A DNA stretch of 22,054 bases from a virus, in IMG/VR virus record IMGVR_UViG_3300049855_000419, positions 1-22,054 of that record; one strand, 5' to 3'. Under the pieces are notes generated by a model that worked only from the letters and a program-made list of their open reading frames with translations, ran no database searches and was not told where the DNA came from. The translations under genes and the position numbers were made by a program. Below are positions 4,060 to 22,054 of this stretch, one piece after another; the first letter of the stretch is position 1; each line of letters starts with the position of its first letter.

Positions 4060-4922
4060 CGGATGCCCCTGAACTTCAGGTTCCACGACAGCCAGTCCTG
4101 CTTCAGCCGGACAGGCGGATTGACATCACCGTCATGCCAGCAGAACTGAGAGGTCAGCACGGCATCGGAATCGCCTCCCGAAATGTCCTTGCGATCGACA
4201 TGCACCGGAGCCGTCTCCAGGTATCTCTGCAGATCGTACAGCCATGTCGTGGCCCACGACTGTCTGATCATTTCGAGAGAGATGCCGAACTGGGTGCCGC
4301 GATCGAGAACCGACCTGCCGATCAGGAGACCGGTCGATGCTGAGTTGTCCAGGATCTTGACATCGCGTGCCGACGTCTCCGGAGCCTCGCCGGACCACGA
4401 TCCGATCTCGAACTTGCGGCAACGATGGATCGACAGGTTGTTGACGCGAGGCGGCACTGACGGTGATGATCTGGGAGTGATGTTGAGTCTCCAGTACCGT
4501 CTCGTCAGTACCGACGTGCCTCCAAGAACGGCATGACGGACCTGAGGGATCTTGCCGGTGTACAGATCGGCGGATCCGGACCACAGACTCGACGCAACGA
4601 AGTTGGTCCACGTCGAGTTGTCCGGCGAGCTCTGCACTGCCAGATCCCAGCCGTCGGAGTAGTTGAAGCCTTGCACTCCAACACCATCGACATCGTAGGT
4701 CGGCGATGAGCCGAAGTCGACGGTGATCGTATGCGCCGACGTGTCCGTGCCTTTCCAGTATGTCGATGGCGAGCCGTCGACAAGGAAGTCGACTGGATAG
4801 TTCACATCAGACGAGCTGGCGACGATCGTGTTGGCGGACAGAGATCCGGCAGGAACGACATTCTGCAGGAAGCTCGGTCCGCTGATGATCAGTCGGTTCA
4901 TCCATGACGGGGTCACACTCAT
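4056..4922 (-). CDS. Distal tail protein with a discoidin-like (F5/8 type C) carbohydrate-binding domain
   Basis: 288 residues, starting in an ATGA overlap with the tape measure gene. Residues about 22-168 read like a discoidin/F5-8C jelly roll: the opening SANTIVASSSDVNYPVDFLVDG, here given only as the pattern S-A-N-x10-Y-P-V-D-F-L-V-D-G, then STYWKG, ITVDFGS, WDLAVQSSPDNSTW and RRYWRLNI are the expected strands. The C-terminal part ends in a region typical of tail proteins (WLSWNLKFRGIR). Genes directly after the tape measure usually encode the distal tail ring that joins tube to hub. A sugar-binding insert in that ring is common in phages that bind cell-surface polysaccharide. Ligand and specificity cannot be read from sequence. 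Confidence 0.72.
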   Translation of the reverse strand: MSVTPSWMNRLIISGPSFLQNVVPAGSLSANTIVASSSDVNYPVDFLVDGSPSTYWKGTDTSAHTITVDFGSSPTYDVDGVGVQGFNYSDGWDLAVQSSPDNSTWTNFVASSLWSGSADLYTGKIPQVRHAVLGGTSVLTRRYWRLNITPRSSPSVPPRVNNLSIHRCRKFEIGSWSGEAPETSARDVKILDNSASTGLLIGRSVLDRGTQFGISLEMIRQSWATTWLYDLQRYLETAPVHVDRKDISGGDSDAVLTSQFCWHDGDVNPPVRLKQDWLSWNLKFRGIR

Positions 4923-7327
4923 GCGACGTTCACCTTCATTGGGTAGCCGTTGTTGGATTCACGGGAGATTGCATCCATGATCTTGCGCACGGAGCCGATC
5001 GACACAATGTCATTGTCGGAACCGAACAGCGACAAGTTGACCGTACGTCCGCCCCCGCTGGCCTGATCGTTGATCGTGATGCCGCTATTGGCGCCTGACG
5101 GTGCTGAGAATGATGCGGCGGATCCGGACTGACCACCACCGAACTGGGTTGAGCTGATCTTCTGGATGTTCATCACACCAGCGGCGACCGCGGCTCCGGC
5201 CGCAGCGACACCGAGGGCCGGACCGACGATCGGAATGCCGGCCATTGCTTGGTACGCTTTGATCGCGGCCAGAGGCACATTGATGGCAGCCTCGGCCATG
5301 GCGGCGGCCTTACCGACCTCGAACGCCTTACGACTTCCAGACTGCATCAAGGTTGCGAGGTTGCCGAGGATCAGACTGTTCGCCTGATATGCTGCATTGA
5401 GATAGTACTCGCGAGTCTTCTGTCTGGCAGCTTCACCAGCCTCGGTGATGTCGGTCAGGTTCTGCTGGTGGACCTGCTCCGATTCCTCCAACATCTGCTT
5501 GCGTTGCACATCGTTGACTGCGTATTCGTCGAGCGAGGCAATCTTGGCCTGTTCGGCAGCGTAGCGGTCATCCTCGTTCTTCTTCAGATTGTTCTCGATC
5601 GCCAGACGCTCCTCGGACGACATCTTGTACACCTCGTTGGAACGAAGCTGTGCCTCCATCCGACGATTCTCACCGTCGATGAATTGCTTCTGATACGACT
5701 CGGCGTACTTCCTGTCATCGTCGATCAGCTTCTTGCGCTCCTCCATCTGCTTCTTGTCTTCCTCCGTCAGAAAGGGGCCCATCGGCGAAGCAGGAGCCTG
5801 ATGTGCGCCTTCATTCTTCTTGCTCGTGGCATCGGCAACGGCCGCGGCGGTGGTATTGACCTTGCCAACCATCTCGTCGAGCACGGCCTTCCATTCCGTA
5901 CCCATCCACGCTTCGCCCATCATCGTTTCGATCTTGTTGGTCGTCTCGTTGATGTTGTCGCTGAGGATCTGCTCCTTCTCGTTGAGCCATTCGATCCCCT
6001 CAGGCTTCGACGTGAAGGCGGTACCGATTGCCTTTCCAGCATCGACCAGCTCGCCAGCCTTCATCTTGGCTTCGTTGATCGCGCTGCCGAGATCCTTGTC
6101 GACACCTTTGGCCATCTCGGCCACACCACCTTGGATCTTACCAGCAGCGCCGCTGATCTTCTCTTCGAGATCGCTGCTGAACACACCGGCAGCTTTGGCC
6201 ATCGCCCTCATCGCGTCGGCCATCATATCGACGATGACCTGCAGGCCGGTCACGATCACCTTTTCGGCACCGTACCAACCGACCTTCAGACCGGACCACA
6301 CCAACGAGTATTCGGCACCGACGAACTCGCCAACCGACTGCAGCACATTTTGTACGTACTGGAAGCCCTTGACGATGTCGTTGACTAGCTGGATCGACCC
6401 CAGCTCGATCATCATGATGCCGGCCTTGAACGCCTGCCATCCGATCTGTGCGATCTGGAACGCGTTGCCGATCTTCTCGATCCACCCGACGACGGTCTGG
6501 ATGGCCGGGATGATGTTGTCTCGAATCAGCTTGCCGTTGTCAGTGAACTTCATGAATTGCTGCACCGTGGCGGTGATGTAGGGAGCCAGACCAACAGCGA
6601 GCTGGTTCTTGACCCCTTCCACTGCGCCGGACAGATCCTTGAAGGCACCGTCGACGAGGCTGATCTGTGCCGAGTCGAGCGAGCTGATCTTCGTGCCGAG
6701 GAGTTCGGCCTTCTTCGATGCCTCGGCCAGACCGGCTGAACCACCGTCGATCATCGTCGCCATCTCGGCGTACGACTTGCCGAAGATCGCCGCCCCCATG
6801 GCGGCTCTCTGTGTCGTATTGTCGACACGATTCAAGGCATCAGCAATCGTGCCGAATGCTGCCGTCGGATCCTGCTTCATCAGGTCGTCGACGGACAGAC
6901 CGAGGTTCGTGAATGCTTCTGCCGACTTGCCACCTTCGGTCGCTGCTTGACCGAGGTTCGTCGTCATCAGGCGAAGCGATTGGTCTGCCGACTCGATGTT
7001 CGTGTCGGCATCCCTGGCTGCCTGATGGAACGACGACAGAGCCTCAGTCGATGTGAACAGCTTGGAAGCCAGGTCGCCGAGACTGTCGATCGACTCGATC
7101 GATGACTTGGTGAACTCGATCAGAGCGCCGACGGCTTCCTTGCCAACCTCCAAACCGAAATGAGTGAAGGCAGCCGTCGCTCCAGCGACGGCACCTCCCA
7201 TCATCGCCATCTTGGCAGAGATCTGACCCGCCGACGAATCGACAGCCTTCTCCGAGTCCTTCAAGGTAGTCTTGAGGCCAGAGTTGTCCCCCATGATACG
7301 GAAGATCAGATCGCCGAGCAGACTCAT
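4919..7327 (-). CDS. Tail tape measure protein
   Basis: 802 residues, the longest protein in the window, placed right after the chaperone frameshift region and coupled to it by ATGA. The composition is typical: long Ala/Lys/Glu-rich helices, a hydrophobic patch near residues 40-55 (MAMMGGAVAGATAAF), repeated amphipathic stretches, a strongly charged middle (for example EEDKKQMEERKKLIDDDRKY), and a second hydrophobic region at about 680-720 containing IPIVGPALGVAAAGAAVAAG. It sets tail length during assembly and leaves the tail with the DNA. Using the known ratio of roughly 0.15 nm per residue, the tail would be near 120 nm; this is inference. No lysozyme or peptidase motif was seen in it. Confidence 0.93.
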   Translation of the reverse strand: MSLLGDLIFRIMGDNSGLKTTLKDSEKAVDSSAGQISAKMAMMGGAVAGATAAFTHFGLEVGKEAVGALIEFTKSSIESIDSLGDLASKLFTSTEALSSFHQAARDADTNIESADQSLRLMTTNLGQAATEGGKSAEAFTNLGLSVDDLMKQDPTAAFGTIADALNRVDNTTQRAAMGAAIFGKSYAEMATMIDGGSAGLAEASKKAELLGTKISSLDSAQISLVDGAFKDLSGAVEGVKNQLAVGLAPYITATVQQFMKFTDNGKLIRDNIIPAIQTVVGWIEKIGNAFQIAQIGWQAFKAGIMMIELGSIQLVNDIVKGFQYVQNVLQSVGEFVGAEYSLVWSGLKVGWYGAEKVIVTGLQVIVDMMADAMRAMAKAAGVFSSDLEEKISGAAGKIQGGVAEMAKGVDKDLGSAINEAKMKAGELVDAGKAIGTAFTSKPEGIEWLNEKEQILSDNINETTNKIETMMGEAWMGTEWKAVLDEMVGKVNTTAAAVADATSKKNEGAHQAPASPMGPFLTEEDKKQMEERKKLIDDDRKYAESYQKQFIDGENRRMEAQLRSNEVYKMSSEERLAIENNLKKNEDDRYAAEQAKIASLDEYAVNDVQRKQMLEESEQVHQQNLTDITEAGEAARQKTREYYLNAAYQANSLILGNLATLMQSGSRKAFEVGKAAAMAEAAINVPLAAIKAYQAMAGIPIVGPALGVAAAGAAVAAGVMNIQKISSTQFGGGQSGSAASFSAPSGANSGITINDQASGGGRTVNLSLFGSDNDIVSIGSVRKIMDAISRESNNGYPMKVNVA

Positions 7328-12927: not shown

Positions 12928-14235
12928 TCAGTGGGCCAGGAGGAGCTTGAGCGCCTCGAAGTTCAGCACATCGCCGCCGACGCGCTTCGTGAAGTAGAAC
13001 TCCACGTAGGGCTTCACGGTGTACGGGTCGCGGAGGACACGGACACCCTGGCGATCGACGATCTGGTACGCTTCGGCCCAGTCGCCGAACGCAATCGACA
13101 GGCTGTTGTCGGCCCAGGCCTGCATGTCGTTGCACTCGACGATGTCGTAGCCAAACAGAGTCGGCATCTGGCCGTTGAGACCGCCGAGGCCCATCGGGGT
13201 CCAGACGTACTTGCCATCCATCTTCAGGAGGCGGCACTTCTCCTGGCCGGCGCGGCCCATCAGCCACTTGGCCCGGCTGCGATACGGCTCCTTGAGAGCC
13301 ATCTGCATCTTGATCAGGGCGTCGGCCGGACGATTGCCGGAACCGTCCGCCACACCGATCTCACCGGCCACACCAGAGGCGATCTGCTCGATCGAACCGC
13401 GCGGGGTATTGGCCACACCATTCGCACCCGTGGTCGGGTAGGTCAGGATGCCGCGGGGCTTGCCGGTGCCGTTGCCGTTGATGAAGGCAGCCGATTCGAT
13501 GCGCGCGAACTTGTCGCCGACCTTCCGCTGGATCAGGGCTTCCAGATCGACCTTGGCATCGTCCAGCAGACGCTGGCTGATACGGATCACCGCATACTGC
13601 TCATGGACCGGGATGCGCCACTGACCGAACTTGGCGGTATTGGTCTCGGAACGGGCACCGCGCTCGGCCGCCCACCCGGCGGACGCCTCATCGTCGTCGA
13701 CCAGACCTTCGAGGGCGTCGGTGGTGACGGTCTGGACAGAGGCGACCGACCGGAGGGCGGACGTCTCGAACACGCGCTGGATCACGCGGCCGGACTGATC
13801 CGGAGCGACGAACACGCCGCCGTTCGGATCGTCGCTGGTGTACATCGACTTCTTGGCGATCTCGGGGTCGATGTCCTTGCCCTTGCGGAAGAAGTCGCGG
13901 TACGACTTGACGTACTCCTTCTCCTCCGCGGTCAGGCGCAGCATGCTCTTGACGAGCCGGCCATGCTTGACGATCTGGAAGTCGCCATCCTTGAGATCGA
14001 TGTCGCCGTCGAGGTTCGACCGCGACATGGCGGACTTGATCTCGGTCAGGCCGTCGGTGATCTGCTTCTGGAGAGCGGTGATGTCCGTGTTGGCCTTGCC
14101 GAGCTTCTCCTTCATCTCGGCGGATTCGGTGTTGTGATGCTTGACGAACTTCTCGTGCTCGTCGTTGGTCTTCTGGAGGACGGCCACCGCGGACTGCAGG
14201 TCGCCGTTCAGCTTCTTCAGCTCTTCGGGAGTCAT
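12928..14235 (-). CDS. Major capsid protein, HK97 fold
   Basis: 435 residues with AAAGGAT overlapping the stop of the protease gene. Residues 1 to about 75 are a long charged coiled coil, as in the scaffold-like delta domain that the protease removes. The rest has capsid-family marks: SDDPNGGVFVAPDQSGRVIQ, ETSALRSVASVQTV, VHEQYAVIRISQRLLDDAKV, FINGNGTGKPRGILTY and the C-terminal domain with DPYTVKPYVEFYFTKRVGG. It forms the T-number shell after protease-driven maturation. Its place after the protease and before the decoration gene is standard. Whether subunits become cross-linked cannot be read from sequence. Confidence 0.93.
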   Translation of the reverse strand: MTPEELKKLNGDLQSAVAVLQKTNDEHEKFVKHHNTESAEMKEKLGKANTDITALQKQITDGLTEIKSAMSRSNLDGDIDLKDGDFQIVKHGRLVKSMLRLTAEEKEYVKSYRDFFRKGKDIDPEIAKKSMYTSDDPNGGVFVAPDQSGRVIQRVFETSALRSVASVQTVTTDALEGLVDDDEASAGWAAERGARSETNTAKFGQWRIPVHEQYAVIRISQRLLDDAKVDLEALIQRKVGDKFARIESAAFINGNGTGKPRGILTYPTTGANGVANTPRGSIEQIASGVAGEIGVADGSGNRPADALIKMQMALKEPYRSRAKWLMGRAGQEKCRLLKMDGKYVWTPMGLGGLNGQMPTLFGYDIVECNDMQAWADNSLSIAFGDWAEAYQIVDRQGVRVLRDPYTVKPYVEFYFTKRVGGDVLNFEALKLLLAH

Positions 14236-14242
14236 GATTGGA

Positions 14243-14926
14243 TCATCCTTTCGTGGTGATCTTGTTGATGGTGCTGGACAGCTCCTTGAGCGCCGCGTCG
14301 ATCTCAGTCGAACCGTCCCGGTTCCCTGCGATCAGTGCCTCATACCCTCCAGAGAGGAGAGCCTTGGCTTCTGCCGAAGAGAAACCTGCATCCCGCAGGG
14401 CCTCTTCGACTTCTCGCTTCGTCAATACCGATCCGTCAGACTTGACGGCGGTGATCTTGGCGCGGTCGTTCATCGGCCACGTCACGATCGAGGTTTCCAT
14501 GAGTTTGAGCTCATGAAGGTTGCGGATGCCTTTATCGTCGCGAGGATCGGCTCGATCGATCGTATACCCGATCGAGAGCCCCTTCGGTCCCTTCGACTTC
14601 AGCATCAGATGTGCTTGCTGGGCCTCTTTGATTCCCTCGCCGATCCAGATCGACCCGGTCTTCTTGAGGCCCTTGTTGTTGCTCTCGATCGCCTTCCACT
14701 CGCCGATCGGATTCTCCCAGTTGTGCTGCCAGAACAGACCTGGCATCGAGCCGTTGGTCTTGTGCTCTTCGATCGACTTGTCGAAGGCGCCAGGCATCAC
14801 GCGGTCACCGCCGAAGTCGACGTTGCCGTAAGTGCTGGCGTAGCCCTCGAAGTCGCCCGGAGCGGACTCCTTGCCGAGAGCCTTCACCTCGAGGAGGGGG
14901 ACGGTGATGAACTTGAGGCCCTTCAT
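14243..14926 (-). CDS. Prohead protease, HK97 family (peptidase U35/S78)
   Basis: 227 residues from the ATG four bases after the minor head stop, with AGGTG upstream. The frame is open 75 codons further, but that part lies in the minor head gene and reads as noise. The family marks are FEGYASTYGNVDFGGDRVMPGAF near the start (only key residues meant: G-Y-A-S and D-x2-G-D-R-V-x-P-G-A-F), the catalytic His68 in FWQHNWENPIGEW, and the catalytic Ser118 in GLSIGY. ELKLMETSIVTWPMN follows, again typical. The enzyme cuts the capsid delta domain inside the prohead. Confidence 0.92.
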   Translation of the reverse strand: MKGLKFITVPLLEVKALGKESAPGDFEGYASTYGNVDFGGDRVMPGAFDKSIEEHKTNGSMPGLFWQHNWENPIGEWKAIESNNKGLKKTGSIWIGEGIKEAQQAHLMLKSKGPKGLSIGYTIDRADPRDDKGIRNLHELKLMETSIVTWPMNDRAKITAVKSDGSVLTKREVEEALRDAGFSSAEAKALLSGGYEALIAGNRDGSTEIDAALKELSSTINKITTKG

Positions 14927-14930
14927 GGCG

Positions 14931-15683
14931 TCACCTGCTGATGTAGCCGACTTGGCATCGGCAGTTGATGATTTGTTCGGCAGACCCGCTCGGGTCGCCA
15001 GGATACATAAGACTCTCACCACCGACTTGGAACGGCTCATCCATGCTGGTCTTCTGACCGCTGGCGGAGGAATGATCCTCGCGAGTCGATTCGTCGGACG
15101 TCGCGATCCACTCGCGCTTGAAGTCGATGCCGGTCGAGGCCACGCTTTCATGCTGACCGATCTGTGCGGCAGAATGTGTCTCGGTACGAGCGATCGTCAT
15201 CGCCCTTCTCTCGGATACCGCTCCGCCGACACGCGCGACGATGTCGTCGGCGATCTCGGATGGTGACTTGTCGGCATCCATACCGCGAGCGATCACTCCC
15301 TTGATCCGCGAGATCGTGGTCTTCGAGGTCACATCGGCCACATCGAGGGCCCTGGCACGAACAGCCTTGACTGCGCGTGCACGATAGGCGTCCTCGGAGT
15401 CGTACTTGTGCTCGATCCGCACGATGCCCGACTTGCCGAGCTTGTCGATCGCATCATCGAAGGCACCGTTCACGGTCGACAGAGTGTTCCTCTGGACGAG
15501 CGACAGCACGTTCGACTTATGCTCCGACACGAGACCGTCGGCCGATCCCTTCGACGCCGCCTGTCTGGCGACGCGTTTGATCTCGGCCGACAGCTGACGG
15601 GCCAGACGTCTCTCCCGAACAGTCTGGTCCCTGAGGGCCAGACGCACATGGCGAGACTTCTGTGCGGTCGTGACGGTGATCAT
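14931..15683 (-). CDS. Minor head protein (Mu gpF/SPP1 gp7-like)
   Basis: 250 residues from the ATG overlapping the portal stop as ATGA. A longer open frame upstream is arginine-rich noise within the portal gene. The N-terminal half is helical and basic. The C-terminal half, from about residue 165, carries the domain signature: TIARTETHSA, then FKREWIATSDESTREDHSS, GQ, MDEPFQVGGESLMYPGDPSG and a final INCRCQVGY. In SPP1 and Mu this protein enters the prohead through the portal and influences the fate of ejected DNA. Two cysteines near the end (NCRC) are typical. The call is strong although the molecular role is not well defined for the family. Confidence 0.9.
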   Translation of the reverse strand: MITVTTAQKSRHVRLALRDQTVRERRLARQLSAEIKRVARQAASKGSADGLVSEHKSNVLSLVQRNTLSTVNGAFDDAIDKLGKSGIVRIEHKYDSEDAYRARAVKAVRARALDVADVTSKTTISRIKGVIARGMDADKSPSEIADDIVARVGGAVSERRAMTIARTETHSAAQIGQHESVASTGIDFKREWIATSDESTREDHSSASGQKTSMDEPFQVGGESLMYPGDPSGSAEQIINCRCQVGYISR

Positions 15684-17158
15684 TTGCGCCTCTTGCCGAT
15701 CGTCAGCAGCCGGCGGGTCAGATCGTTCACCTTCTTCAGCTCTCGGATTGAGGCCTTGCTTTGGTTCTGATCTCCCTCGGACGATCCGCCTTGATCGGCG
15801 GCATCGTCGCCTGCCTCTGGATCTTTGGCGGCAGGATCTGCCTGTGGGTCGGCGTTCGGGTCGTCGGGATTGGCGGGGTCCGCATTCGGATCCTCCACAG
15901 AAGCGAGGTCTTCGAGCGGGATCAGGGACGATTGGACCAGCACCGTGTCGGCCATCTCGTCGTCGATCTCTTCGTAGCCGAGGGCTGCGCGCTTCTCGTT
16001 GATCGTGAGGCAATTGTTCTGGCTGACCGCCTGCCACTTCGATGCACGACGAGGCTCCAAAGCCTCAATCGCGTCCGCATCGTAGTGGAGGCACAGGTCA
16101 TCACCGTACCGAGGGACGAGCCACGCATTGAACTCGTCGAGCAGAGCGTCGAGGGTCGGCAGGACTGTCTCATCGTACAGACCCATCCGAGCTTCCGCCA
16201 TGTTGGCGTACGTATTGTCGCCTGGGATACCGAGGATCTGTGACGGCACACCGAACGCCAGGGCGATGTCACGTGCGGACGTGTTCTTGCTCTCGATCCA
16301 GTCCATGTCCTTCGGGCTGAATGACATCTCTTGCCACTGCAGACCGCCTTCGAGCAGCATCGGACGACCGGCGTTCTCGGGACCGGACAGAGTGTCGTCG
16401 ATCTCCTTCTTCATCCGCTCGCGCTGCTCCGGCGTCAGCGTCTTGGTGGTCGAGTCCTTCGGGAACCCGAAGCCGCCAGACGGACGAGCGCCATTCTTGA
16501 GCAGGTTGAAATTCCACCGTCCGGTCGCGTTGTGCTGATCGATCGACCACGCGGCGGACTCTGACGGTGACATTCCCCACACCGGATCGAATGGGTTGAA
16601 CGTCTTCCAGTGGAGCAGGTTCGCACGGCCATTGATCGGATCGGTCAGCCACACGACTTCGCCGGACGATCCACGGTACGTGTACGACGACACGCCGAAC
16701 TGCCCTTTGGTCACAGTGAAGCGATCAGGACGAATCGGCCACAGCTCCGTGAATGGCATGTCGTTCGGAACGATCGCTCCCTTGTTGAGGGTCGGCTGCA
16801 CACCGGCGACCATTGAGTTGCCGCCAAGCATCCGATACGCCACGACAGCCTCGATGAACGCGGCACCGGCAGTCGTCGGGTTGGGACGGTGAAGAAGTTT
16901 CAGCAGCGGGTGATTGCGATCGTCGACTTCCTTCTTGCCGCTCTTCAGACACAGAGGAACCTTGGCGACGTTCTGGGCGACGATCGTGATGCACCGGCGA
17001 GCGATCACATTCTTCTGGTAGCCGTTCTCAGCGAACGTCGCATAGTTGCGAGCCGACCATGCGGCCGACGACGTGGCCCACGGCGAGTTCGCGCCCCAGG
17101 TCGGGTCCGACTTGCGGGCCAGGCCGACAACACCGAGAGCTTTGTCGATGATGCTCAT
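15680..17158 (-). CDS. Portal protein (HK97 family)
   Basis: 492 residues, starting in an ATGA overlap with TerL. Family marks appear in order: VIARRCITIVAQNVAKVPL with DDRNHPLLKLLHRPN, then AVVAYRMLGGNSMV, PIRPDRFTV, LLHWKTFNPFDPVWGMSP, LLKNGARPSGGF, DWIESKNTSARDIALAFGVP and GDNTYANMAEARMGLY. The C-terminal region after about residue 430 is an acidic tail rich in Asp, Pro and Ala, probably flexible and inside the head. The dodecameric portal is the DNA gate and the docking point for the terminase and the connector. Confidence 0.93.
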   Translation of the reverse strand: MSIIDKALGVVGLARKSDPTWGANSPWATSSAAWSARNYATFAENGYQKNVIARRCITIVAQNVAKVPLCLKSGKKEVDDRNHPLLKLLHRPNPTTAGAAFIEAVVAYRMLGGNSMVAGVQPTLNKGAIVPNDMPFTELWPIRPDRFTVTKGQFGVSSYTYRGSSGEVVWLTDPINGRANLLHWKTFNPFDPVWGMSPSESAAWSIDQHNATGRWNFNLLKNGARPSGGFGFPKDSTTKTLTPEQRERMKKEIDDTLSGPENAGRPMLLEGGLQWQEMSFSPKDMDWIESKNTSARDIALAFGVPSQILGIPGDNTYANMAEARMGLYDETVLPTLDALLDEFNAWLVPRYGDDLCLHYDADAIEALEPRRASKWQAVSQNNCLTINEKRAALGYEEIDDEMADTVLVQSSLIPLEDLASVEDPNADPANPDDPNADPQADPAAKDPEAGDDAADQGGSSEGDQNQSKASIRELKKVNDLTRRLLTIGKRRK

Positions 17159-18609
17159 AGACGGCTGATCCTGGGCTCGTCGCCAGAAACGAGTACGTTG
17201 TAGCCTCCGGAGCCGGAGTCCACCTGATCGTCGTGATAGCCTTCAGGCTCCTTCAGAATCTTCGTGTCCATGAACATCTCATACTCGCGGAGCCACTCCT
17301 CGTTCCAGGGACCGCGTACAACGGTGATGTTCCCAGACTCAGCAGCGGCGGACATCGGCTTCGCTCTGGTCGCCTTGTCCTTCGTGACGCGGTTCGAGTA
17401 GAACGGACGATCGAGGAACATCTTCGACAGGTCGTCGATCTCACTCTTGCCTGCACCACCTGGATCTTCCTCGGCCCACACCTCGACTTCGGCGCCGTCC
17501 TGATCGGCGCAGTTCCTCATCATGCGCTTCACACCTTCAGGACGAACACGATCACGGCAAACATCCAGCACGAACACACGACCATTGACGAGGCGCATCA
17601 GAGTGCCGACCGTCCAGTCAGGATCAGGGTACGCGGCAGTCGGTTCAGACGCAGCACGATCCCAGTAGCGCACCGTACGTCCACCGACAGGTGCCTGATC
17701 GACGAGTGGGAACCAGAACTTCTTGAAGAACATGCCGCTGGTCGGCAGGACATTCCAGTTGCATCCGAGTAGTTGGAGTCGCTCGACCATCGGCAGAGCC
17801 TGTAGGCGAGCACGATACTCGGGATCGTTCTTGACGAGCGCCGGATTGTCCGACAGCTTGCTGGCGATGAATGTCAGCGAGCGAGGGCGGATCTGATCTT
17901 CGTGATCGAGGGGCAGATCCTTCTTGCCGTACTTCTCGTACGACTCTTCCTTGCTGTCAGCCCACTTCAGATGGTCGCCATCACGGATGAACCACCGCAG
18001 CACACCGCTACGTTCCGGAATCGCCAGACCAGTCTCCTTGTCAATCCACCAATCGACCAGCTTACGGACCCACGACGTCGAGTCCGGATTGCATGTTGCG
18101 TCCATGTACGGCCGCATCGGCAACGGTGCTGACATACGATTCCGAGATGTCATGTACCAGAACATGTACTCGGTAAAGTGTGTCAGCTCGTCGAAGTCGA
18201 TGATCGGGATCTGAGCGCCCTGCCACGACAGGACGTCGCTCTGATGTTGCAGATGGCTGAACTTGATCGTTGCACCGCTCGGAAACTCCCATTCACACCG
18301 CGACACTCTTGGCTTGCCGCCGAGGTACGGGTAGATCATCATGCTGGTGTCCCACAGACCGCCAGGATTCATGATGTCCGGATACGTACGACGGAAGATC
18401 ACCGCACTGAACCCAGGGTGCTTCACATACCGAGCTTTGTCGAGGCAGATCACATACGACTTCCCACCACCGGCACCTCCGCCGAACAGACGAATGTCAG
18501 CACGTGATGCGCAGAGCTGAGTCTGAGGACCAGCCTGAGGGCGCAGAACGATGTTCTGTATCGTCATGATCGCGAGGATGACGGTGATGTAGAAGGCGTG
18601 GACGCGCAT
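17155..18609 (-). CDS. terL: Terminase large subunit
   Basis: 484 residues from the ATG one base after the stop of the Cys-rich gene (TGA-C-ATG). An ATG 14 codons further in (18567) is the alternative, since the first residues (MRVHAFYITVILAI) do not look conserved. The ATPase half shows the Walker A GGAGGGKS near residues 44-51, an arginine-containing FRRTYPDIM, and Walker B IPIIDFDEL. The nuclease half shows VRYWDRAASEP with the first acidic residue, VEVWAEEDPGGAGKS, and DDQVDSGSGGYN near the end with the last acidic pair. It cuts concatemeric DNA and drives packaging into the portal. Length and motifs are typical of Terminase_6-type proteins. Confidence 0.94.
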   Translation of the reverse strand: MRVHAFYITVILAIMTIQNIVLRPQAGPQTQLCASRADIRLFGGGAGGGKSYVICLDKARYVKHPGFSAVIFRRTYPDIMNPGGLWDTSMMIYPYLGGKPRVSRCEWEFPSGATIKFSHLQHQSDVLSWQGAQIPIIDFDELTHFTEYMFWYMTSRNRMSAPLPMRPYMDATCNPDSTSWVRKLVDWWIDKETGLAIPERSGVLRWFIRDGDHLKWADSKEESYEKYGKKDLPLDHEDQIRPRSLTFIASKLSDNPALVKNDPEYRARLQALPMVERLQLLGCNWNVLPTSGMFFKKFWFPLVDQAPVGGRTVRYWDRAASEPTAAYPDPDWTVGTLMRLVNGRVFVLDVCRDRVRPEGVKRMMRNCADQDGAEVEVWAEEDPGGAGKSEIDDLSKMFLDRPFYSNRVTKDKATRAKPMSAAAESGNITVVRGPWNEEWLREYEMFMDTKILKEPEGYHDDQVDSGSGGYNVLVSGDEPRISRL

Positions 18610-18610
18610 G

Positions 18611-18865
18611 TCAGGCGGACGTGACTTCGGCAGGAGGTGTATCGACGACCGGAGCGGGCTCGTCGGTCGTGGCGGGAGGGGCCTCACGGACGATGTGGAA
18701 GAACTTGTCGAGGCTGCCCTTCAGTGCGGTGAGGCACGACAGACAGATGTCGTGGTCGCCGTTCACATACTCGGTCTTGCCGCCGACGAACAGGGCCGGC
18801 GACACGACACGTGCCACATCGGGGCCGAGTTCTGCCTGGCAGCAATCGCAGGTGATGGTCTTCAT
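18611..18865 (-). CDS. Small protein with two CxxC pairs, probable zinc ribbon
   Basis: 84 residues, started within an ATGA overlap with the TerS candidate. Cys6/Cys9 (CDCC) and Cys41/Cys44 (CLSC) make a C-x2-C...C-x2-C pattern that would hold one zinc ion; an additional Cys8 lies in the first pair. The remaining C-terminal part is Pro/Thr/Ala-rich and probably unstructured. It sits between the small and large terminase genes, so a packaging or DNA-ends role is possible, but a small host-directed zinc ribbon is equally possible. No named family is recognised. Confidence 0.72.
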   Translation of the reverse strand: MKTITCDCCQAELGPDVARVVSPALFVGGKTEYVNGDHDICLSCLTALKGSLDKFFHIVREAPPATTDEPAPVVDTPPAEVTSA

Positions 18866-19197
18866 ACTTCAGGCTCCTTGTCACGGCCATTATCAGGCAG
18901 CGTGACGTTGACGGTGACATTGGTCGGCATTGCAGAATCGTCGCCACTCTCGGTGACCATGTCCTTCGGAGTGACCGGCAGGACGAACTCCTTGTAGAAG
19001 CCGACAGGGTCGGTGTCGAACCTCTCCTGTGCCGCATCGTAGAACTTCTGGATGTTCGCCGACTCGCTCAGCATCACATCGAGAGCCATCAACATGCAGC
19101 GGCGACCCGGAGCCTGCACCGGAGTACGAGACTTCATCGAGGCCGCTTTGATCGCCTCGCTCCTGATCAACTCGATACGGTCAGTCTCACTGAGCAT
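18862..19197 (-). CDS. Probable terminase small subunit
   Basis: 111 residues, overlapping the gene before it by 11 bases and the next by ATGA. The segment QKFYDAAQERFDTDPVGFYKEFVLPVTPKDM resembles small terminase-like proteins that carry an (F/Y)-x6-(D)P-x2-F(Y/L)K pattern; only these residues are meant. The N-terminus is helical and basic (IRSEAIKAASMKSRTP), and the C-terminal end is acidic (DNGRDKEPEV). Position just ahead of TerL supports a role in recognising packaging sites. Small terminases diverge fast, so the identification leans on position and one motif. Confidence 0.62.
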   Translation of the reverse strand: MLSETDRIELIRSEAIKAASMKSRTPVQAPGRRCMLMALDVMLSESANIQKFYDAAQERFDTDPVGFYKEFVLPVTPKDMVTESGDDSAMPTNVTVNVTLPDNGRDKEPEV

Positions 19198-20641
19198 GGA
19201 TCAGTTCCCGCTGCACCTTCACGTTGTAGTTCGCGATGATCAGCCCCTCAGCTTCGAGCATGGCAATCTGGCGGTCGAGTCGATTCTCGTCGACCCAGCC
19301 GTTGCCCTCACTGCCATATCGCTCTCTGCCGATCTCACGCCACCATGTGACCCAGCCTGGATGGAGCGGTGCTGAATCGACCAGACGATTGTAGGTCGAC
19401 ACGATGAATTGCTGCTTCCAGCGCTTCCTGAGGGCCGCACCGACAGACGACACGCGATTCTGTGACAGGATCGACCAGATCAAAGTCTCCATCGGCACAG
19501 AACCATCGAGCATGCCGCTGAATGCCTTCGGGGGGCACACAGCATCAGACAACCACGATCTCTCGCCGAGCTGGGTCATCGTGGCAAGGAGCATCGAGCC
19601 CATCGTGATATCGAACACGCCCTTGCCGACTGCCGACCCGTGCTTTTCCTGCAGCTTGATCCACAGGCGGCACAAACTCTCTCGTGCAGCATTATAGCCA
19701 AGCTGGAGGGTGACCACAGACGGTGATGTTCTGTAGCCGGAAAGAACAGCGACGAGGGCGAGATGGTGTGTCGACAGACCGCAGCCACTCTTCTTGAACG
19801 GCTGGCTGCGATCGTGGTGCGACTCAATGAAGTTGGGGCCGATCTTCGCAGCCTTCTTCCACTCGGTGTGCCATTCCCACGGCGTGGTGATCACGCCGGT
19901 AAGGGCGCCAGGAAGTCCGAGACCGATCATCAGGGCGGTGAGGACGGTGACCTTGTTGGACGTGGAGCGAATTTCGCGAGCGAACGGTACGAAGAGCGTG
20001 CTCCATTCCTCCTTCGTGAAGAACATTCGAATCGTCTCGTCCTCTCCACCGCACTCATCGACGATCTCCTGCACAGTGAAGGCCTGGCATCTCTGCACAT
20101 GCCGGCCATCGAGGCATGAACCCATCATCGCCGCCGAGGCCAGGACGGTGAAGCCTTCCGCCTTGCCGAGCGACTCGAGGTCAGCCGGCAGAATCGACTT
20201 CATCCAGCGAGGGATCGGGACATTCACCACTACATCATCGGTGTGGGTGTGTCTTGGGCACGGTGACAGAGTCATCTCAGGGACAGTGTCGTTCGTGTAC
20301 GTGGCACTCGGGATTGGCAGCCCCTTGATCTCACCGTCGAAGGCCCACTCACAAGCATCACGTGCCGGTCTGTTGGTGTGGAGCGCGTGGAACATTCCGA
20401 GAGCGACATCGAGGACGTTGATGCCTTCGTAGTCGCCGATGTGCACGTGAGACGGTGACGTAGCCAGACGATGTTCGCACCAGGCACGAAACGTCGATGC
20501 CAGCTCACCACTCCGAGATTTCGGGTTTGTCTGTGTATAGACACCGGCCGTCATATCAACGACCAACATACCGAGATCGAAGCGACGGATCCTGTCCACC
20601 GCTCTCTCTCTCAGATAGATGTGTCGGAGTGACGCGATCAT
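19187..20641 (-). CDS. 484-residue protein of unknown function, first gene after the late promoter
   Basis: The frame is open from 20731, but the start at 20641 is preferred because a promoter-like element would begin transcripts near 20695, downstream of the first ATG. That start has no clear Shine-Dalgarno. The protein is globular, with many His, Trp and Cys residues. Segments include DMTAGVYTQTNPKSRSGELA, GDYEGINVLDVALGMFHALH, PCPRHTHTDDVVVNVPIP, WEWHTEWKKAAKIG and SHHDRSQPFKKSGCGLSTHH. The C-terminal third is helical (WREIGRERYG, DRQIAMLEAEGLI). I recognise no family. Helix-rich ends and its place before the terminase genes might suggest a DNA-linked or early packaging role, but this is a guess. 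It overlaps the TerS candidate by 11 bases and is therefore part of the same operon. Confidence 0.8.
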   Translation of the reverse strand: MIASLRHIYLRERAVDRIRRFDLGMLVVDMTAGVYTQTNPKSRSGELASTFRAWCEHRLATSPSHVHIGDYEGINVLDVALGMFHALHTNRPARDACEWAFDGEIKGLPIPSATYTNDTVPEMTLSPCPRHTHTDDVVVNVPIPRWMKSILPADLESLGKAEGFTVLASAAMMGSCLDGRHVQRCQAFTVQEIVDECGGEDETIRMFFTKEEWSTLFVPFAREIRSTSNKVTVLTALMIGLGLPGALTGVITTPWEWHTEWKKAAKIGPNFIESHHDRSQPFKKSGCGLSTHHLALVAVLSGYRTSPSVVTLQLGYNAARESLCRLWIKLQEKHGSAVGKGVFDITMGSMLLATMTQLGERSWLSDAVCPPKAFSGMLDGSVPMETLIWSILSQNRVSSVGAALRKRWKQQFIVSTYNRLVDSAPLHPGWVTWWREIGRERYGSEGNGWVDENRLDRQIAMLEAEGLIIANYNVKVQRELIHAQ

Positions 20642-20686
20642 GGTATGTCGTACACTATGGTTACAGTCCTGGACCCGGCCATAGTA

Positions 20687-20718
20687 CCCTCTCCCTATAT
20701 GTAATACAACAAGATCAC
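20687..20718 (-). promoter_or_regulatory. T7-class-like phage promoter, leftward, for the late operon
   Basis: Read on the minus strand: CTTGTTGTATTACATATA followed by GGGAGAGGG, with the GGG at 20695-20693. The tail TATAGGGAGA is identical to the -4 to +6 part of the T7 consensus promoter. The expected start near 20695 lies 54 bases upstream of the preferred ATG at 20641. A matching element lies on the other strand at 20783-20808. No good -35/-10 pair was found here. The polymerase itself is not in this window. Confidence 0.5.
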
Positions 20719-20737
20719 CACCATCCCACACTTGTTG
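20707..20737. repeat. 7-bp inverted repeat CAACAAG/CTTGTTG upstream of the leftward promoter
   Basis: CAACAAG at 20707-20713 and CTTGTTG at 20731-20737 are exact inverted copies 17 bases apart, and flanking TGTA/TACA bases extend the symmetry. The inner arm overlaps the leftward promoter-like element, so it could be an operator for a dimeric regulator, or a hairpin. Confidence 0.45.
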
Positions 20738-20782
20738 GATTGCAATACATTAGCCATCCTCAAAAAAAATCACCCAGGACCA

Positions 20783-20808
20783 CTTTATTTATTAGGATCG
20801 GGGAGAGG
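20783..20808 (+). promoter_or_regulatory. T7-class-like phage promoter, rightward, for the noncoding RNA
   Basis: CTTTATTTATTA, six bases, then GGGAGAGG at 20801-20808. It shares TATTA-N6-GGGAGAGG with the leftward element, at identical spacing, and 9 of the 12 bases ending in TATTA. The predicted start is G20800 or G20801, at the head of the structured region. These two are the only copies of the full pattern seen in the window. Confidence 0.5.
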
Positions 20809-20812
20809 AGCT

Positions 20813-20832
20813 CTATCTATCTATCTATCTAT
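20813..20832 (+). repeat. Tandem CTAT repeat, five copies
   Basis: Five exact CTAT units in a row directly after the rightward promoter-like element, in the presumed first 35 nt of the RNA. Such short repeats are prone to slippage, so copy number may vary. Confidence 0.9.
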
Positions 20833-20858
20833 AATATGATTTATTTTTGTTACACCCA

Positions 20859-20893
20859 TATTATATTACACCATCATCAACTATTATATTACA
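20859..20893 (+). repeat. 12-bp direct repeat TATTATATTACA, two copies
   Basis: Exact copies at 20859-20870 and 20882-20893, period 23 bases, in the AT-rich leader. They resemble the TATTACA core of the leftward promoter-like element but lack GGGAGA behind it. Confidence 0.85.
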
Positions 20894-21506
20894 AGATATC
20901 ATCCCTTATCCCCCAAGGATTTACATTTAGAGACACACGGGAACCGCCCGAGAATCGTCTAGGCTCGACGATCGCCTCTACTGCACTATCCCCATACTGC
21001 ATTGCAACGATCTCACGTCCTAGCCTCCTACCGCCTTACGGAGCATGGACAGTCCCTTTGACCAATCGCACACCCAGAATTATTGGTCAAGGATCCTGGA
21101 GGGTCCAAATCAACTCCAGTGCTAGATCCGCATTCCTCCCTCCACCAAACGAGTACACCCAGCCGGTCGTGTCGGCTGGGTGCTATCGTGGGGCAGCAGC
21201 GGATCAACGGGTAAGTCCCCATGTGATCCTCGAGTTGTTGACTCCCGAATGGCCACGGCTCTCCGACTCGGACGGAGCGCACACCAACGACTAGGTCACC
21301 GTTAAAACCTTCACCCGTCCATGCCCGGACCGCCGAGGTGACCTAGCAGCTTGTGGAGCCGTGACAAGAGGAGGGTCAACGGATAAGGCATGCGGTTGCC
21401 GTCTCCTCGCCTCCAACTGTGGTGGGATCGACCTGGGTCGATGCCGGACTCCCACCGTACCGTTGCCTCCCGTTTGGCCGCATGCACGGGAGGACTTAAT
21501 CGGACA

Positions 21507-21541
21507 CCACAGCCGTGGCCCTTTCACAGGCCACGGCGTGG
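21507..21541. terminator. Strong 13-bp hairpin between the RNA and the convergent gene
   Basis: CCAC-(A)-GCCGTGGCC (21507-21520) pairs with GGCCACGGC-GTGG (21529-21541) around loop CTTTCACA. It sits between the end of the RNA body and the stop of the convergent gene at 21562, so it may end transcripts from both sides. No U-tract is present on either strand. Confidence 0.5.
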
Positions 21542-21561
21542 ATCACCGATCGTTGCCTGGC

Positions 21562-22054
21562 TCAGGCCTTCTTGGCGGCAGGGAGCTCGACGGCCTTGCC
21601 GTCGAACGCCACACCGAAGGTCTTGGCATCGTACTCCGCGGCCCGGATCGCCTGCTTGAGGGCACGGGTGCGGGCCTTGGTGGTCTCCTCGGTGGTGTCA
21701 GCCACCGTGAACCGGAAGAACGCACGGCCATCGGTGATGTCGCCGCGCTTGGCGACCTCGACGACCTGCAGGCCGTTGGTCTTGCCGTCCTTGACGAGGG
21801 GCTTGACCCAGAAGCCAGGGGCGGAGCCAACCGAGATCGCACCGGTCCGACCGACCGCCTTGATGTCGCCAGCCTTGGGCGGATTCTTGAGGAGAGCCTC
21901 GACGGCGTGCCACACGACGGCGCCGGGCTTCACGCCCAGGCTGTCGGCGAGCTTCTCCAGCTTGTCGTGGGTCTCGGCGTGGGCCGAGCCGATGCCGACG
22001 ATCATGGTCTCGTACTTGGACTTCTTCTCCGCTCCGGCGGCCGGGGGCACGTTG
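21562..22054 (-). CDS. Conserved-looking protein of unknown function, probably 5'-truncated by the window
   Basis: A GTG at 22050 could start a 162-residue protein, but the frame stays open to the last base, so the true start may lie outside. The visible sequence is well behaved: a charged start (GAEKKSKYETMIVG), a helix with HDKLEKLADSLGVKPGAVVW, beta-like parts (FWVKPLVKDGKTNGLQVVEV, RAFFRFTVADT), a helix with ARTRALKQAIRAAEYDAKTF and an alanine/lysine end. I recognise no family. Composition is soluble and cytoplasmic. It transcribes towards the RNA region and would converge with it at the 21507-21541 hairpin, so it belongs to a different unit from the late genes only if the leftward promoter at 20695 is the main late start. 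Confidence 0.72.
   Translation of the reverse strand, partial: NVPPAAGAEKKSKYETMIVGIGSAHAETHDKLEKLADSLGVKPGAVVWHAVEALLKNPPKAGDIKAVGRTGAISVGSAPGFWVKPLVKDGKTNGLQVVEVAKRGDITDGRAFFRFTVADTTEETTKARTRALKQAIRAAEYDAKTFGVAFDGKAVELPAAKKA

Follow-up and report, generated by a model that had tools for sequence, protein, structure and literature searches.

GOLLD and ROOL, both found in phages, are RNAs that build cages consisting of RNA alone (PMC12286853). GOLLD is a large, elaborately folded RNA of phages and prophages with unknown function, in many cases longer than 800 nt, and ROOL is phage-borne, 659 nt long for the solved one, and multi-helical with pseudoknots and kissing loops (PMC12286853). A first-pass annotation of the window analysed here, a 22,054-base IMG/VR virus record that is apparently a fragment, had proposed a large, ornate noncoding RNA of a known class or a new one on the plus strand at 20800-21541. 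Our analysis favours, at a probability of roughly 0.45, a structured noncoding RNA of roughly 600-650 nt on the minus strand, reaching from about 21551 or 21497 to about 20900 and having its own role late in infection. Every identifiable gene in the 22-kb window, which is otherwise densely coding, lies on the minus strand:

21562-22053, minus: orphan gene of 163 aa upstream of the noncoding gap, reaching the contig end; codon score +0.41
19187-20641, minus: orphan ORF of 484 aa, first gene of the late operon
18862-19197, minus: 111-aa protein; its counterpart in L112 (46% identity over 74 aa) also lies just upstream of the terminase
17155-18687, minus: terminase large subunit, Terminase_6 type
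15680-17158, minus: portal
within 14931-15920, minus: head morphogenesis protein
14243-15151, minus: head protease
12928-14235, minus: major capsid protein
4919-7327, minus: tape measure protein

The late operon runs on the minus strand away from the gap in the order 484-aa ORF, terminase, portal, protease, capsid and tail, and the region had thus been placed correctly at the head of the late genes. Three proteins upstream of the terminase (84, 111 and 484 aa) belong to no family; from its sequence match, the 111-aa protein may be the small terminase subunit or a packaging partner. The 484-aa ORF has a weak codon score (+0.17 per codon) and no relative in Pfam, PHROGs, phages, IMG/VR patterns or 297 genomes, and its fold predicted without alignment was useless (pLDDT 34). 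A search for relatives of the 163-aa gene found none either, and the flanking orphan proteins led to no relatives of the phage.

The gap between these two minus-strand genes measures about 880 nt (20683-21561). With the structural genes of the window as training set, codon-usage scores were negative across it in six of six frames, compared with +0.22 to +0.45 per codon for known genes, and a Pfam search of its six-frame translations matched no family. The claim of about 740 nt without a credible gene therefore holds for the whole gap, which is noncoding in all frames, as is generally expected of a large noncoding RNA. Enough upstream sequence was available for 132 distant relatives sharing the terminase type, and only five of them carry a gap of at least 450 nt within 6 kb upstream of the terminase; a large gap is therefore not routine for such a gene order. 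The gap consists of two parts, an AT-rich, unstructured one from 20683 to about 20903 and one of near-normal GC content with many inverted repeats at 20904-21551. Of the span first proposed, the structured part is retained, whereas 20800-20900 is AT-rich and unstructured; minus-strand 200-nt windows over the AT-rich part gave z +0.47 (20701-20900) and z −0.39 (20801-21000). On the side of the late genes the following features were found:

20683-20903, minus: AT-rich unstructured stretch, defined by composition
20891-20882 and 20868-20859, minus: TAATATAATA twice, 23 nt apart, facing the late genes
20682-20638, minus: 14-codon leader ORF MAGSRTVTIVYDIP with ribosome-binding site GGGAGAGG

Within the 22 kb, TATAATA is confined to these two minus-strand sites and one on the plus strand at 20830. 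From these motifs the AT-rich stretch is probably the late promoter region of this GC-rich phage, and the two copies of TAATATAATA are candidates for its promoter boxes. The leader ORF and the start of the 484-aa ORF share an ATGA overlap, suggesting translational coupling. The stretch also contains a (TCTA)5 tandem repeat at 20812-20832, and TATAGGGAGA at 20699, just upstream of the leader ORF, resembles the end of a T7-type promoter.

Folding of the minus strand predicted the following elements:

21498-21551, minus: long hairpin H0, supported by inverted repeat I2, immediately following the stop codon that ends the 163-aa gene
21466-21493, minus: hairpin H1, CCTCCCGT-gcatgcggccaa-ACGGGAGG, upstream of the core
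21421-21456, minus: double hairpin H2, GGTGGGA..TCGAC ccag GTCGA TCCCACC, upstream of the core
20904-21388, minus: core domain closed by P1; MFE −218, z −5.0, 0 of 300 shuffles as low
21388-21381 CCTTATCC / 20911-20904 GGATAAGG, minus: helix P1, 8 Watson-Crick pairs enclosing 485 nt
21237-21380, minus: P2 arm, pair probabilities 0.74-0.99
20912-21234, minus: P3 arm, pair probabilities 0.85-0.99, enclosing P4, P5 and P6
21155-21183, minus: hairpin P4, GCACCCAGCCG-acacgac-CGGCTGGGTGT, 11 bp, p=1.00; the plus strand can form it too
21060-21088, minus: hairpin P5, GACCAAT...ATTGGTC, p=0.95
20959-21023, minus: P6 arm, 21023-21019/20963-20959 and 21012-21006/20976-20970, p about 0.95

P1, P2 and P3 meet in a three-way junction that is almost free of linkers (0, 2 and 0 nt): P2 begins at the base after P1 (21380) and ends at 21237, and P3 begins at 21234 and ends at 20912 beside P1. 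The pair probability of P1 was 1.00 in contexts of 611 to 1351 nt, and those of the core were mostly 0.85-1.00 and the same to two decimals with 611 or 1351 nt folded. P2 consists of helices 21380-21375/21242-21237, 21365-21356/21261-21252, 21347-21337/21300-21290 and 21330-21326/21321-21317 with a side hairpin at 21276-21262 (p 0.74), and P3 of 21234-21226/20920-20912, 21225-21214/20945-20934 and 21211-21208/20950-20947. As 5 of the 21 pairs in the first two P3 helices are G-U, P3 fits the minus strand. The dozen helices noticed on first inspection, several of them adjacent, were thus recovered as about a dozen of 5-12 bp, several abutting. Upstream of the core, pair probabilities depended on context for H2 (0.87-0.92 in 662 nt vs 0.24-0.39 in 1.35 kb) and H1 (0.89 vs 0.36, same contexts), and H0 was stable in every context folded (p 0.99). 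H0 has no T-tract on either strand and was not called by intrinsic terminator scoring; we regard it as terminator- or processing-like. The H1 loop GCATGCGG is complementary to CCGCATGC (21396-21389), directly 5' of P1, which is suggestive by its position, although an equal 8-nt loop complement appeared in 12 of 200 shuffles and is not significant alone. By complementarity, the loop could possibly form a pseudoknot with CCGCATGC or kiss itself through its palindromic GCATGC. Imperfect direct repeats were also seen at 21201-21215/21373-21387 (13/15 identical) and 21237-21254/21462-21479 (15/18); their segments are mutually complementary (GTTGAYCC / GGGAGKCAAC), so that alternative pairings would be possible in a putative RNA.

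Compared with dinucleotide shuffles, the minus strand of 20900-21561 (662 nt) folds at −302 kcal/mol (shuffle mean −263, z −4.9), with none of 200 shuffles as low (lowest −286). The fold is stronger than that of composition-matched shuffles, a general mark of large noncoding RNAs, though coding windows reach similar values: 400-nt windows of the region, at −2.8 and −2.7 sd in composition-corrected energy, are among the lowest of the contig, some minus-strand windows inside genes are equally low (e.g. 6641-7040 and 15441-15840), and coding windows of 640 nt go down to z about −5.5. Folding energy alone therefore does not mark the region out. High-confidence pairs were matched or exceeded in 3 of 100 shuffles (top 3%) and long-range pairs in 11-12 of 100 (top 11-12%), so that the fold is moderately strong overall and one sequence cannot settle whether it is an RNA.

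Searches for relatives of the region gave no support by conservation. Rfam returned no match at the gathering score nor at E≤10, and hence no GOLLD, ROOL, HEARO or OLE. Homologue collection by blastn yielded none among phages, plasmids, about 228 related loci and 385 genomes. Phages and plasmids gave nothing beyond one 36-nt match to Bordetella phage FP1, located on the AT-rich TCTA-repeat stretch, and the 385 genomes, from the class of the Sinorhizobium relative, just two matches, 32 and 49 nt long (E near 1e-3), assigned to chance because such hits are expected over 385 genomes. The related loci showed no DNA similarity to the region with blastn and nhmmer, and the five relatives with a gap of at least 450 nt have none like it in sequence. 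Searching IMG/VR for the exact patterns of the P4 hairpin and the P1/P2 junction found no match, nor did a covariance model built on the P2 arm against 180 sources comprising the window and the loci (best outsider 17.6 bits, E 0.14). Terminase and portal queries did retrieve many relatives, the close ones at about 37-51% identity; as the best terminase relatives all lie at about 40-51% identity, the phage is without close kin in the collections searched. The capsid as query and the terminase as single-sequence query in bacterial genomes retrieved nothing. The large RNA remains an unproven candidate, because no relative was found in any collection searched.

The order of stop codon, H0, structured 600 nt, AT-rich TATAATA stretch and leader ORF agrees with an RNA on the minus strand whose 3' end precedes the late promoters. 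Such a transcript would arise by read-through from the upstream 163-aa gene or else initiate at an undetected start of its own, and would stop short of the AT-rich stretch; no promoter or terminator bracketing it is recognisable. It would fold into the three-way-junction core (P1-P3) closed by 8 bp, with additional side hairpins, and probably work as RNA itself in late infection, as is thought for GOLLD and ROOL in their role as scaffolds or cages. The analysis establishes that the region is noncoding, can base-pair and lies among minus-strand genes, and from this we infer transcription, end points and stability of the RNA; a cage-like or scaffold role, by analogy, is speculative. It is favoured by the missing coding signal, an MFE below 200 of 200 shuffles, the context-stable core, the minus-only G-U pairs of P3, the strand of the genes and the rarity of the gap; against it count the lack of homologues and hence of covariation, coding windows that fold alike, and the loop complement in 6% of shuffles.

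The main rival explanation, possible but less likely, is a control region acting as DNA or leader, without a separate large RNA, in which H0 stops transcription after the 163-aa gene and the AT-rich stretch carries late promoters, together with protein-binding inverted repeats and perhaps, close to the terminase genes, the site where packaging starts. The extensive fold would then be what GC-rich intergenic DNA with several inverted repeats yields, and indeed the majority of the perfect helices are possible on either strand, as expected of DNA repeats, G-U pairs lie below the shuffle level on both strands, and the fold energy is not unique in the contig. H0 following the stop codon and the paired TATAATA boxes pointing toward the late genes agree with it, but 600 nt is long for a control region, distant relatives have no comparable feature upstream of the terminase, and the long-range pairing of P1 and P3 has no evident use at the DNA level. 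That the region is the remnant of a decayed gene or functionless inserted foreign DNA would agree with the lack of conservation in every collection searched, and is improbable given six frames without trace of a protein family, codon scores negative throughout and an organised low-energy fold.

A large noncoding RNA on the plus strand, as first proposed, would start in the AT-rich stretch at the single plus-strand TATAATA (20830) and end at H0, convergent with the 163-aa gene. The plus fold also beats its shuffles (−255 kcal/mol vs mean −230, z −3.6), but is weaker in energy and z than the minus fold, has 5 pairs with p>0.9 spanning more than 100 nt vs 46 on the minus strand, and runs against every identified gene. 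Its original basis, G-U pairs fitting only the plus strand, proved wrong: there are 24 among 225 pairs in the minus fold and 7 among 202 in the plus fold. Because shuffles give about 33 and 18, more than the real folds on either strand, these counts reflect base composition and give no support to the plus strand; G-U counting was discarded as an uninformative strand test. The putative RNA thus most likely lies on the minus strand, and we consider a plus-strand RNA unlikely. An intron is rejected, with no Rfam match and a normal-looking C-terminus of the upstream ORF.

The large structured noncoding RNA proposed initially stands as the best reading, whereas membership of GOLLD, ROOL, HEARO or OLE is not supported, with no Rfam match and no tRNA nearby. 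If real, the minus-strand RNA would join the few large RNAs of unknown purpose in phages as another lineage unrelated to them and strengthen the view that such RNAs are made by many phages; at present it is a single-sequence candidate, mainly of use as a query once closer phage relatives are sequenced. It would be a long shot that it represents a new class of ornate phage RNA apart from GOLLD and ROOL, in which the H1 loop GCAUGC and the three-way junction assemble copies into an RNA-only particle late in infection.

Packaging RNA of the phi29 type was considered because the region lies near the terminase genes. That RNA has about 174 nt and is tied to phi29-like packaging motors, whereas the terminase here belongs to the Terminase_6 type, and the region has no match in Rfam. 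Neighbouring or embedded tRNAs are frequent for GOLLD, though not obligatory, and ARAGORN finds none in the window, itself a fragment. Membership of GOLLD or ROOL is not supported: the candidate matches no Rfam model even at E≤10, the conserved 3' region of GOLLD was not found, and the comparison with ROOL has no covariation support. In its predicted fold, the candidate resembles GOLLD as a large, elaborately folded and phage-borne RNA, and ROOL in its similar length, phage origin and multi-helix architecture.
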